Virus record (IMG/VR): IMGVR_UViG_3300031578_000144
Span: 1-39,143 of that record
Length of the DNA: 39,143 bases
Reading direction: 5' to 3' (one strand)
From: a virus
In this document: positions 3,499-8,504 of the stretch, in pieces
Position numbering within the stretch: the stretch's first letter is position 1
Layout of the letters: every line of letters starts with the position of its first letter
Program-made: the position numbers and the translations under genes
The notes under the pieces: generated by a model
Told to the model about the DNA's origin: nothing
The model's input: the letters and a program-made list of their open reading frames with translations, nothing else
Database searches by the model: none

Positions 3499-5481
3499 AT
3501 GAGTGACATATGGTTGAGCCAGGAAGAGGTAAGTGCACTCGAAAATATTAAAAAAAGAGCATTTTGGAAGCGTTTTAAGCAAAATCACTACAAAAGCTTT
3601 CGCTACGTAAAATCGGAAAATGGCGGCCGCGGAGGCCAGCGATTAGAGATCACTCTCTCCTCACTTTCAACCGAGGCGCAAAACCTCTACCTTCAAAAAA
3701 AATACAACCATACCGAGCTTACTCCCCAGGAATTGGCAGCCGATTTTAAGATCAACATCCCGCCGGAAAAACTCATAAATCCAAAAATACAATCAAAGGT
3801 CCGCATGATTGTCCGCTGCCTCTCAATACCGGATGAGGTCAACGATCGCAGCGCGCAGATCCGGGAGATAGCGGAGTCATGTGGGTATGCACAGGCGACC
3901 GCGTACCGGCTCCTCGATCGTGTCAAAAAAGGGGAGCTCCTGATCAAGCCTACAAAAAACTACGGCATTCATAAGGCCGATCTGGGCATCACACTTAGGG
4001 CATGGGACGAACGGGCCGCTGAAATGTCGATCGAGCTGATCATGGGAAACAAGCGCAGGCATCAAGACGGCCTGACGCTGTATACTATTATAAAGGATAC
4101 CGCCGAGGCCGAAAATCTCACGATAGGTACTTATGCATCGTTCATGAGACTCAAGAAAAAAATTGGCGGCGCCATAAAAACGTATCGCGATAAAGGCCGC
4201 CAGGGCCTCAGACAGGATATCATTCCGGGCATCCGTCGGGATCCCACGTCATACCGCCCGATGGAGGTGTTGATCGGCGACCAACACAAGGCGGATTATT
4301 ATGCGATCGATTCCAACGGCAAGGTGGCCACGCTCGAGCTTTTCTGCTGGATGGATTTTCGCTCCCAGATGGTATGGGGCGCAGTCAGCTACAAGCATTA
4401 TAATAGATATACGGTGGGCCAGGCTCTTATTAATGCAGTGGGCTGGGGCCTGCCTTCTGTCTGCTACACGGACTGGGGCAAGCCGGAAGAATCTAATTAC
4501 ATGACTTTGCTTATAGAGCAGCTTACCGGGCTCGGCGTTACAACCGAGTCTATCGACCATATAAAAGCAGAGGGCCGCCATCCGCAGGCGAAGCCGATCG
4601 AGGGATTTTTCGGGAATTTCGACCGCCGGCTCAAAAATGCAAAGATCCCCGGTTATTGCAAACGCCTGAAAGATTCCAGAGAAAATGAGCTTCAACAGAA
4701 ACAATTGAATCAATGGATTAAAACGAATCAATTGTGGAACATCCCTGATCTGGCAGCCAAACTGATCGGTGAATTATCACGCTGGAATAAACACCATTTC
4801 AAAAACCGCAATAATGACAACGGGCGGTCACCGCTCGAAATATACACAGATGAGGTGAAACAACACCCTGTCGCCACACTCTCAGACGATACCCTGGATT
4901 ATATCTTTCTTCCAAAGCGCGATCTCCTGATCCGGCGTTGTCAGGTAAGTTTTCAGCACGAATGGTTAGGGAAGAAAGTGTATTACGACCGGGCGCTGGC
5001 GGATTATCAGGGCTACATGGCAGAGGTCCGGTATAATCCGTTCGATCCCTGGCGCGTGTGGGTATTTGTGGAAAGAAAGCTCATCTGCGAGGCGGAGGAA
5101 TGGGGAATGATCAATCCGAAGATACCGGCGCAGGTGGAGGCAAAGCGGGCCGAGCAAAAGGCCCTGGCCGATCAGATCCGGGCAACATACAAAAAATATG
5201 CGCCGCCCACAAAGCCGGTGCGCAAAATCAACCGGCACGAGCGCGAGGCGCGGGAGGTGAGCAAAGTGATTGAGCTGCGGATCAGAAAAACAAGTCTGGA
5301 AAAGCAAATGGAAGAGCAAGGGGAGACAAAAATAAGCATCCAGGCCGGCGGCGATCCACTCGAGGAATTTCGGAAGCAATTTCATCCTGATGCTACAAAG
5401 GCCAGGATGCACGCATATGAGGAGAAGGAATATAAGCCGTTATTCAAACTAAGCATGAAGCAATTACACAAGGAGGATTAA
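3499..5481 (+). CDS. Mu-type DDE transposase (A protein)
   Basis: This 660-residue protein matches MuA architecture. Residues 1-70 form a Mu-type winged-helix DNA-binding domain (WLSQEEVSALENIKKRAFWK with a later RGGQRLEI). An HTH region follows around 115-150 (IREIAESCGYAQATAYRLLD). A retroviral-integrase-like core spans about 250-400, with candidate catalytic residues D261 (IGDQH), D325 (YTDWG) and E368 (PIEGFF). A Mu-type beta-barrel region and basic tail complete it. It catalyses integration and replicative transposition of phage DNA. The ATG follows AAGGATATTACGTC. The stop abuts the ATPase gene behind an AAGGAGG site, a typical A-B operon. Confidence 0.93.
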   Translation: MSDIWLSQEEVSALENIKKRAFWKRFKQNHYKSFRYVKSENGGRGGQRLEITLSSLSTEAQNLYLQKKYNHTELTPQELAADFKINIPPEKLINPKIQSKVRMIVRCLSIPDEVNDRSAQIREIAESCGYAQATAYRLLDRVKKGELLIKPTKNYGIHKADLGITLRAWDERAAEMSIELIMGNKRRHQDGLTLYTIIKDTAEAENLTIGTYASFMRLKKKIGGAIKTYRDKGRQGLRQDIIPGIRRDPTSYRPMEVLIGDQHKADYYAIDSNGKVATLELFCWMDFRSQMVWGAVSYKHYNRYTVGQALINAVGWGLPSVCYTDWGKPEESNYMTLLIEQLTGLGVTTESIDHIKAEGRHPQAKPIEGFFGNFDRRLKNAKIPGYCKRLKDSRENELQQKQLNQWIKTNQLWNIPDLAAKLIGELSRWNKHHFKNRNNDNGRSPLEIYTDEVKQHPVATLSDDTLDYIFLPKRDLLIRRCQVSFQHEWLGKKVYYDRALADYQGYMAEVRYNPFDPWRVWVFVERKLICEAEEWGMINPKIPAQVEAKRAEQKALADQIRATYKKYAPPTKPVRKINRHEREAREVSKVIELRIRKTSLEKQMEEQGETKISIQAGGDPLEEFRKQFHPDATKARMHAYEEKEYKPLFKLSMKQLHKED

Positions 5482-6480
5482 ATGACAATTCAACAGGCAT
5501 TAAAAGATGAAATAATAGGCATTAAATCAAGCGAGCCACCAGCCGGGTACAACGAGGAGCTTCATGAACGATTTAATAGATGGATGGACCAGAGCGGGGC
5601 ATCACTGGCAAAGGCAGCGAAGATGATCAACCGGAGCACGGCACTGGTGCATGGATATATTCACCGGACGTACGAGGGAGATATCCCGGCCATCGAAAAG
5701 GATATCGAAAATCTCCTGAGGCGAGAGGAAGAATTTGAGCTCACCATGCGATCTCCCACATTTTGCAGCACGAATGCATCCATCCTGATCTGGGAGGTGT
5801 TTGAATACTGCGATGAGCGGTGCAGGATGGGGGCGGTGATTGCGGAATCCGGCTCAGGAAAAAGCGAAACAGCGAAAGAATATCAGAGACAGAACAGGGC
5901 TACTATGATTATCACGGCTAATTCCACCACACGAACGCTCGGGGCCACGATGCGGCTCCTGGTAGATCATGTAGGGGGCAGGCCAAAGACAAATACCATC
6001 GATGATATGCTCAACAAAGTCTTAAAAAAATTAAAAGGATCCAGACGGTTATTGATTGTCGATGATGCACATTTTATCCCCTGGGCCGGCCTGGAGGTAA
6101 TACGGAAGCTCTATGATTGCGCGGGTGTGGGTGTTGTGTATCTGGGACAGGAAGAACTCTATAATCAGATGACCGGTGACACTAACAAAGCCAGATTGTT
6201 TGACCAGATCTACTCAAGAATCGCGATTAAGCGAGACCGAATAAAAATCAGTAAAAACGACGTGCAGTTGATTATCAACTCGCTCTATCCACGGGGCTTT
6301 GGAAAAGACGAGATGGATTATCTGTATCGCAAGGCCAGGGAAAAAGGCCATCTGCGTAATGTCACATATATGCTGGAGATGTTTCTGGAAATCAAAAAAA
6401 AGCAGCCGATCCTGACAGATATCGAGGCGTTGATGGCGGCTGAAAAATTCCTGATGCAAAAAGAGCGGGAGGAGAAATAA
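5482..6480 (+). CDS. MuB-like AAA+ ATPase, transposition target selector
   Basis: The 332-residue protein has an N-terminal HTH (about 30-60, ASLAKAAKMINRSTALVHGY), a Walker A SGSGKS at 123-128, a Walker B LLIVDDAH at 190-197 and a sensor-type LGQEEL further on. The C-terminal helical region matches the MuB/IstB-like pattern. MuB binds target DNA with ATP, delivers it to the transposome and gives target immunity. The ATG directly follows the transposase stop and shares its AAGGAGG site, so the two are translated together. Confidence 0.9.
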   Translation: MTIQQALKDEIIGIKSSEPPAGYNEELHERFNRWMDQSGASLAKAAKMINRSTALVHGYIHRTYEGDIPAIEKDIENLLRREEEFELTMRSPTFCSTNASILIWEVFEYCDERCRMGAVIAESGSGKSETAKEYQRQNRATMIITANSTTRTLGATMRLLVDHVGGRPKTNTIDDMLNKVLKKLKGSRRLLIVDDAHFIPWAGLEVIRKLYDCAGVGVVYLGQEELYNQMTGDTNKARLFDQIYSRIAIKRDRIKISKNDVQLIINSLYPRGFGKDEMDYLYRKAREKGHLRNVTYMLEMFLEIKKKQPILTDIEALMAAEKFLMQKEREEK

Positions 6481-6488
6481 GAAAATGA

Positions 6489-6625
6489 GGTTTGGCGAGG
6501 TATGGTCTGGTTTGGTATGGCGAGGTGAGGCTCGGCGAGGTCGGGCAAGGTCTGGCGCGGCCGGGTTTGGACGGGTCAGGTCTGGTTTGGTTAGGTCGGG
6601 CATGGTAAGGTAAGGCAAGGTAAGG
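6489..6625 (+). repeat. GGYNN pentamer array 1 (28 units)
   Basis: GG occurs at every fifth base from 6489 to 6624 without a miss, 28 times. The base after GG is a pyrimidine in 27 of the 28 spacer triplets, while the other two are free. The array ends TAAGGCAAGGTAAGGATATA. It fills the gap between the ATPase gene and the next gene. Confidence 0.95.
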
Positions 6626-6661
6626 ATATAATTCAATAACAATTAATAGGGAGGAATTCTC

Positions 6662-7198
6662 ATACAAACAATAACGGTTCGAATCGAAGGCATAAGCCCA
6701 TTGCTGATGCATAAATTTCCAATGACGGATGAAGATGCAAAGAGCAAGGCACGGGACCAAAAAAAGAACCAGGACAATGTTGAGAGTTATTTATATCTGA
6801 ACGATAAAGGCAAACTGGCGCAGCCCTCGACTCACATCATCGGGTGCCTGAAAAAGGCAGGCGCAAAATACCAGATAGTGGGCCAGGGCAAGATGACCTA
6901 CAAAAATCTTATGGGTTCCGGCGCAGTTATTGTCGACCCCGACATGATCCCTCATGAAAAGCAGGATTGGGAAATAGACAGGCGTCCTGTGGTGGTTCAA
7001 CGGGCCAGGATTGTCAGGGAGCGCCCCATGCTCAAAGAATGGGCGCTGGAATTTACCATTGAATACGATGAAGATGAAATTCATAAGGGTACGTTAAAAG
7101 AAATCATGGATTATGCGGGACGGCGCGTGGGCATCGGCGATTTCAGACCGTCGAATGGCGGGCCGTTCGGCAGATTTATCGTGACGAAATTTGAATAA
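6662..7198 (+). CDS. Unknown conserved-type protein between two GGYNN arrays
   Basis: The conserved-looking N-terminus (IQTITVRIEGISPLLMHKF) begins upstream of any ATG. A strong GGGAGG at 6649-6654 points to an ATA codon at 6662 (178 residues), with TTG at 6701 as the next usable start. The C-terminus carries RRVGIGDFRPSNGGPFGRF, a glycine-rich motif of a family I associate with phages but cannot name. Predicted beta-rich, cytoplasmic. Its role in replication or recombination is unknown. The gene is bracketed on both sides by the phased pentamer arrays, which may be linked to it. Confidence 0.6.
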   Translation: MQTITVRIEGISPLLMHKFPMTDEDAKSKARDQKKNQDNVESYLYLNDKGKLAQPSTHIIGCLKKAGAKYQIVGQGKMTYKNLMGSGAVIVDPDMIPHEKQDWEIDRRPVVVQRARIVRERPMLKEWALEFTIEYDEDEIHKGTLKEIMDYAGRRVGIGDFRPSNGGPFGRFIVTKFE

Positions 7199-7204
7199 TT
7201 TTAT

Positions 7205-7341
7205 GGCACGGCGTGGCGAGGTGGGGTCTGGTGTTGTTAGGTCGGGCTAGGTGAGGTCCGGCGCGGCGAGGTATGGCCGGGTAAGGCGCGGTAAGGCGAG
7301 GAAAGGTATGGCATGGTGAGGCGCGGTAAGGCAAGGTAAGG
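7205..7341 (+). repeat. GGYNN pentamer array 2 (28 units)
   Basis: Of 28 phased positions, 27 are GG and one is TG (7235). The spacer triplet starts with a pyrimidine in 27 of 28. It is the same length (137 bases) as array 1 and has the same last three units, TAAGGCAAGGTAAGG, but the internal triplets differ. Confidence 0.95.
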
Positions 7342-7392
7342 ATATAAAAGGAAAGAAAATAAAAAATTAAACAAATAGCTACGGAGTTAAGT

Positions 7393-7611
7393 ATGCGGAT
7401 TGTGCGATTTTTGGCAATCATATTTTTAGGCGCATGCCTGGGGGCGGCTTTGATGGTTCACATATGTCAACCTCTCACGTTGATCCAGGAGAATGAGGAG
7501 CTGCAGGCGGATGTGGCAGGCCTCTCAAAGGCATATACGCGGAGGTTTACGAGATCCCATATTATGCCGTTTCATCCCATTCGACAGGCTCAGGGTCATA
7601 AAATAAATTGA
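7393..7611 (+). CDS. Small membrane-anchored protein
   Basis: This 72-residue protein has one N-terminal hydrophobic helix (FLAIIFLGACLGAALMVHIC) and a short coiled-coil region (LIQENEELQADVAGLSKAY). The C-terminus HPIRQAQGHKIN is written by a TTCGACAGGCTCAGGG element, so the original end is lost or altered. A weak site (CGGAGTTAAGT) precedes the ATG. Function unknown. Confidence 0.5.
   Translation: MRIVRFLAIIFLGACLGAALMVHICQPLTLIQENEELQADVAGLSKAYTRRFTRSHIMPFHPIRQAQGHKIN
7576..7595 (+). repeat. CTTCGACAGGCTCAGG-type repeat, copy 2
   Basis: CCCATTCGACAGGCTCAGGG is read in frame as IRQAQG near the C-terminus of the small membrane protein. Confidence 0.85.
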
Positions 7612-7628
7612 ATCAATAGAGGTAACAA

Positions 7629-8504
7629 ATGCCACATCATGAAGTGAAATGTCCATGCGGGAAAACAAAAATGATTTACCGGAGCCCGAAACAGAAGGTG
7701 CCGAAATATTGTAGTATGGCATGCAGGCGGCGGTTTCATTCCGGCAATTATAAGCGGAAAAAATGGCTGTTCACCCCGGAGATGGATGAACAGATACGCG
7801 AGCTGTACCGAAATAAAGTGTCCATGAAATCAGTGGCCTATACCGGCCCGGTCAAGAAGCTGGCCGAGAAATTCGGCATGCCCCGGTGGAAGGTGAGCAA
7901 ACGGGCGGGCGAGCTTGACGTGGTACCGGTACAGAAAAAGGAGCCGATCTACTCAGATACCGAGATCTGGATTCTCAATCAATGCGCGCATCGAAGCCCG
8001 CAGGTCGTCCAGAAATATCTCAAGCGGGCGGGATATCGAAGATCGCAGCAAGGGATCAAGCTCAAGATGAAACGCCTGCAGCTCTCCCGCGCGACCATGA
8101 ACGGGTATACATCCCGATCGCTCGCAGGGCTTTTTGGTGTCGACGATCACGGAATTGCGCGGTGGATCAAAAAGGGCTGGCTCACTGCACAGAAGCGCGG
8201 CACGGCCCGCACCCCGCAGCAGGGAGGGGATGAATGGTTTATCCGCCCGGAATGGGTGAGGGAGTTTGTGATTGCGAATGTAGCGGTGATCGATTTCATG
8301 AAGGTGGATAAATATTGGATGGTGGAAGTTCTAACAGAAGCCCATAGCTCACAGCTGATAGCTGATAGCAAAAGAAAAACAGAAAGACCTGAGATTGAGG
8401 AGCCGGACGAAGTCGATATACGTTATTACGACGACGAAGAAGACGAGGTGGATATAGTTGATGGTATCCCGAGCTTATCGGTGGCTCGTAGTTGGGCGGA
8501 ATGA
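7629..8504 (+). CDS. Zinc-finger and HTH DNA-binding protein
   Basis: The 291-residue protein starts with a zinc-binding region (CPCG at 8-11, then YCSMAC at 27-32). It continues with HTH-like segments (GPVKKLAEKFGMPRWKVSKRAGEL) and a MerR/excisionase-like one (YTSRSLAGLFGVDDHGIARWIKKGWL). The C-terminus is strongly acidic. It is probably a phage transcription or replication regulator, but I cannot name the family. The stretch AHSSQLIADSKRK comes from an inserted AGCTGATAGC-type repeat at 8341-8372. The position in the middle region would suit a late activator. Confidence 0.55.
   Translation: MPHHEVKCPCGKTKMIYRSPKQKVPKYCSMACRRRFHSGNYKRKKWLFTPEMDEQIRELYRNKVSMKSVAYTGPVKKLAEKFGMPRWKVSKRAGELDVVPVQKKEPIYSDTEIWILNQCAHRSPQVVQKYLKRAGYRRSQQGIKLKMKRLQLSRATMNGYTSRSLAGLFGVDDHGIARWIKKGWLTAQKRGTARTPQQGGDEWFIRPEWVREFVIANVAVIDFMKVDKYWMVEVLTEAHSSQLIADSKRKTERPEIEEPDEVDIRYYDDEEDEVDIVDGIPSLSVARSWAE
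8341..8372 (+). repeat. AGCTGATAGC-type repeat arm inside a gene
   Basis: CATAGCTCACAGCTGATAGC followed by TGATAGC is the same unit as in the intergenic elements at 17634, 22879 and 34636. Here it is read in frame, encoding HSSQLIADSK. Confidence 0.75.

Follow-up and report, generated by a model that had tools for sequence, protein, structure and literature searches.

The window, by which we mean the whole stretch of DNA analysed here (virus record IMGVR_UViG_3300031578_000144, 39,143 bp), carries genes for a MuA-type transposase and a MuB-type ATPase directly upstream of a GG-rich pentamer array, and terminase, portal and head genes in its downstream part. A single gene separates this array from a second one. 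The features of the locus are listed below.

3499..5481, + strand: MuA-type transposase (phrog_310, 4.5e-54; Mu-transpos_C)
5482..6480, + strand: MuB-type transposition ATPase (phrog_296, 1.8e-55; AAA_22), directly upstream of array 1
6489..6625, + strand: putative vrRNA array 1, with 28 GG at 5-nt pitch and 27 GGYNN spacers, 24 of them variable
6609..6631, + strand: presumed 3' terminus of guide 1, GGTAAGGCAAGGTAAGG then ATATAA, a candidate vrRNA tail
6650..6654, + strand: Shine-Dalgarno-like GGAGG of vipr, 7 nt before 6662; GGAGG also precedes the ATG of the sister phage
6662..7198, + strand: vipr gene for a RAMP-fold Vipr of 178 aa, with an apparent ATA start codon
7205..7341, + strand: putative vrRNA array 2, with 28 positions in phase, 27 of them GG and the one at 7235 TG
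7325..7347, + strand: presumed 3' terminus of guide 2, GGTAAGGCAAGGTAAGG then ATATAA, identical to the array 1 end

Both arrays are 137 bp long, and the coordinates and GG counts given in a preliminary description of this DNA, according to which two arrays with GG every 5 bases flank one gene, proved correct. The 28 GG of array 1 follow one another without a miss; this is the longest phased run in the region, and when the region was shuffled 500 times with dinucleotides preserved, no run exceeded 6. Of the 54 internal spacers, 52 have a pyrimidine directly after GG, the exceptions being GGACG in array 1 and GGAAA in array 2; the strong bias described earlier is therefore real, but its count of 54 of 56 is not. 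Array 2 is composed of 24 variable units and the last three units of array 1 (spacers TAA CAA TAA), and we confirmed that the two arrays share the end GGTAA GGCAA GGTAA GG ATATAA. This shared 3' end, GGTAAGGCAAGGTAAGGATATAA, a candidate for the invariant vrRNA tail, has no predicted stable structure, and the array end in the sister phage (IMGVR_UViG_3300017989_000528, locus L140; 93% identity in Vipr and 89% in MuB) is similar, with GGYAA-rich and A/T-rich sequence. The RNA of array 1 folded slightly better than its shuffles (z -1.7), whereas that of array 2 did not (z -0.5), and Rfam gave no match.

The arrays had been described as resembling no named element, a statement that is now outdated. 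VIPR (Viral Interference Programmable Repeat) consists of phage-encoded RAMP proteins (Vipr) and vrRNAs of alternating GGY and NN. The NN dinucleotides serve to read dsDNA, with a 1-nt skip, and the system, a CRISPR-like phage weapon, represses competitors, for the most part phages but also satellites (PMC13142463, a 2026 preprint). The expression of vrRNAs, Vipr binding, 1-nt-skip recognition and transcriptional repression were shown on homologues, and staggered arrays with overlapping vrRNAs were described alongside vrRNAs of 9-16 units; seven types are distinguished (PMC13142463). VIPR is an RNA-guided phage-versus-phage system that has been proposed to precede CRISPR, and its hallmark was recovered here blind, from raw sequence alone. 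We have high confidence that the locus is the VIPR locus of a Mu-like phage, a new example of an already known system, and the two tracts are very probably the genes for its gapped guide RNAs (vrRNAs).

The product of the flanked gene belongs to phrog_4652, a PHROGs family without an assigned function. A family profile built around this protein matched PDB 36pp (SUSP1 Vipr) with E=4.4e-32, and the window protein as a single sequence matched it with E=4.4e-10. Its AF2 model has a mean pLDDT of 91.8, and the nearest Foldseek neighbors were the RAMPs of Csm and type VII CRISPR effectors (probability 1.00, TM-score roughly 0.4-0.6, identity 8-16% against the effector chains), with a likeness to Csm3/Cas7 subunits. 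The RRM-like RAMP fold appears in the predicted structure together with a conserved glycine-rich loop near the C-terminus, and G153, G157, R162, P163, G170 and F172 are near-invariant in the family. Judged by homology, the flanked protein is a Vipr, a homologue of the RAMPs, and protein and array together firmly indicate VIPR membership.

The vipr frame opens with ATA (6662-6664), seven bases after GGAGG, at the place where the sister phage has ATG (L140, 4593). An open reading frame listing gives only 6701-7198 for this frame, and the next in-frame ATG, GTG or TTG is the TTG at 6701, within the conserved N-terminus of the product. The ATA would be either a rare start codon or a sign of impaired translation, and on its account the translation of vipr is not certain.

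The preliminary description had proposed a search for GGYNN units in other genomes, and an exact 14-unit GGYNN pattern had at least 120 matching stretches among viral contigs, with linkage to homologues of the flanked gene. Among the matches listed, the base after GG was C or T in 97% of the units while the other two bases varied widely, the Vipr family formed by far the biggest protein cluster near the arrays (62 loci, in 57 of which the gene lies no more than 300 bp from an array), and a profile search found Vipr at 87 of 119 array loci. In the reverse direction, arrays were present at all eight genome-contig loci and in all five named phages, including phiSUSP1, that had been picked by protein alone. 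A control pattern, GGRNN, retrieved simple repeats for the most part (no more than 4 distinct triplets in 61 of 80 matches), and its median of 2 distinct triplets compares with 10 of 14 in a typical GGYNN array. The contrary picture considered earlier, in which such tracts are random low-complexity sequence with no link to this gene, disagrees with the Vipr linkage, the GGRNN control and the shuffles. Vipr was also present in 17 of the GGRNN control loci, and in the loci inspected the array has the GGANN form. GGANN arrays beside a Vipr homologue, with A nearly throughout at the third base and a variable NN, were seen at L193, L199, L167, L174, L196 and L176, and further such loci are L201, L225, L211, L186, L204, L237 and L164; the GGANN form may be the 'related consensus' mentioned in PMC13142463.

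Very long arrays of up to 143 phased units were observed beside or near Vipr genes (L013, 6301-7012; L099, 413-914; L026; L062; L045), and these may be the staggered arrays of the preprint (PMC13142463). L132 (3453-4252) also holds a Vipr relative accompanied by an array of 14 units, on a contig that binning assigned to the archaeon Methanoregula; this contig is either from an archaeal virus or mis-binned.

The locus resembles the VIPR of phage SUSP1 and of a Pseudomonas fulva prophage (PMC13142463; PDB 36pp) in its homologous Vipr, its location in a phage, its same-strand GGY/NN pentamer arrays flanking the gene and probably its invariant array end. In contrast to those systems, the window has no evident vap gene, an apparent ATA start and a position right behind MuA and MuB, and its tail is short, A/T-rich and without predicted structure, whereas that of SUSP1 is structured. 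Its arrays are also longer, with 27 repeats each (24 variable) against the 9-16 per vrRNA published for VIPR, a range that describes the characterised clades and is not a strict criterion. The window thereby extends VIPR by a Mu-like phage whose guides would be longer. The predicted fold and the C-terminal glycine-rich loop are shared with the RAMPs of Class 1 CRISPR (Csm3/Cas7 and type VII Cas7); however, the pitch in the window is 5-nt rather than the 6-nt of Class 1, and pentamer arrays were seen instead of a CRISPR array or cas genes. None of 19 scanned window proteins matched a cas family (9 scanned with Pfam, 19 with PHROGs).

In the sister phage the two places are likewise occupied by arrays, but these have about 18 and 17 units and differ in most of their content. 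The unit number is therefore not fixed, and the equality of 28 and 28 looks coincidental; of the constraints proposed earlier, that on phase and the freedom of most of the sequence held, and that on unit number did not. Judged from this pair, the guides turn over faster than the surrounding genes. In units 6-14 of array 1, window and sister agree at 16 of 18 NN bases, against just 2 of 9 third bases, a difference that was significant within this one pair of phages (Fisher p=0.0012; unit-order permutation, 0 of 20,000). This pattern argues that selection, or else recurrent choice of one target, acts on NN but does not extend to the third base. The comparison thus tests the reading code through evolution, with no target required: NN is conserved and the third base varies freely. 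It supports, from sequence and independently of any target, the view that NN would be the message-carrying part of the array, in agreement with the published code. Within the shared array-1 core, GG has become GA twice in the sister. The second sister array has a one-base phase slip (an insertion) after seven units, at about 5130-5217 of L140, and may be a decayed or split guide.

By analogy with the characterised systems, both GGYNN arrays would be transcribed into vrRNAs, which would bind copies of the Vipr encoded between them, probably with one subunit per pentamer. The suggestion that the protein between the arrays is their binding partner was right in spirit, and the element is best read as an RNA guide carrying many Vipr subunits. 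The GGY parts would hold the protein and the NN pairs would read dsDNA with one base skipped between pairs, so that a 24-unit guide could read about 72 bp, and the most likely role of the complex would be to repress a gene in a rival phage or mobile element. That the guides of the window phage are expressed and processed, with all 24 units in use, is an inference, and so are the subunit pitch and the target. We tentatively propose, as a possibility somewhat short of even, that a long-guide branch of VIPR exists in Mu-like phages, with about 24 variable units per vrRNA, roughly 72 bp read as one gapped target, and selection on NN only.

Each array could instead give rise to two or more overlapping, shorter guides, as in a staggered array, with the locus still a VIPR. 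The published vrRNA sizes and overlapping vrRNAs provide a precedent for this arrangement (PMC13142463), and array 1 of the sister lacks about 10 units that are located in the window between the shared core and the tail. However, no tail-like sequence was found inside either array, the GGYAA-rich end with ATATAA occurring once only, at the 3' end, and unit counts in near relatives run from 9 to 35, several of them at 15-35, with long single arrays of 30 units (L129) and of 35 and 25 units (L131). Staggered guides are credible but rather doubtful for this locus.

Two further explanations dispense with guide RNAs. The arrays had been suggested to form two-tetrad G-quadruplexes with 3-nt loops, in RNA or ssDNA. 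As a rival to the guide reading, these would regulate expression or replication, and the GG-N3-GG spacing does permit such structures on paper. G4-aware folding nevertheless brought no gain, its minimum energy being equal to the ordinary folding energy for both arrays, and G-quadruplexes, which tolerate variable loops, do not predict the exact 5-nt pitch, nor do they account for the Vipr linkage, for the retention of NN beside a free third base or for the two GG-to-GA changes in the sister. We consider such a role very improbable. That the arrays are a functionless, degraded pentanucleotide repeat maintained by slippage is more improbable still, to the point of being negligible: slippage can generate tandem pentamers, and the unequal unit numbers of the sister phages would suit it, but the triplet diversity of GGYNN arrays relative to the GGRNN control, the wide linkage to one protein family and the NN-specific conservation would all be unexpected.

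Guide RNAs of a VIPR system being the preferred reading, targets were sought by several routes. Exact 9-unit patterns read by the 1-nt-skip rule had no matches in viral contigs for either array. The core that window and sister have in common yielded 4 candidate matches, roughly as many as chance would be expected to give, and these were rejected since the outer units fitted poorly (11 of 30 at best). A scan of all local loci, among them the window, with skips of 0-3 remained at shuffle level and so revealed no self-target, and a test of skip length over all arrays put none ahead in a small database. With up to 3 mismatches allowed, a pattern from the core of array 1 had no matches in 395 genomes of the phylum of a Desulfobulbaceae MAG, and the decoded peptides had none by tblastn, Pfam or PHROGs. 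Decoded array 1 ([FL][DE][IM]L[FL][IM][DE][DE]S[DE]R) has a Walker-B-like look, which is a mere impression.

As to the host, MuA had distant matches in the phylum of the Desulfobulbaceae MAG and the terminase had none in the phylum of a Dehalococcoidales MAG, results that together assign no host. The position of vipr and the arrays right behind the transposition genes suggests co-expression with MuA and MuB; scans for promoters and terminators around the locus gave chance-level results only and so lend it no promoter backing. VIPR loci 'typically' have an accessory vap gene (PMC13142463), and none was identified beside vipr, where the window and the sister carry different genes downstream. Both phages have an HTH-like gene (7629-8504 in the window), but the sister has extra sequence between the array and this gene, and no accessory gene is therefore fixed beside vipr. 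In the window, the region 3' of array 2 (7393-8504) holds a 72-aa ORF followed by the HTH-like gene, which encodes 291 aa.
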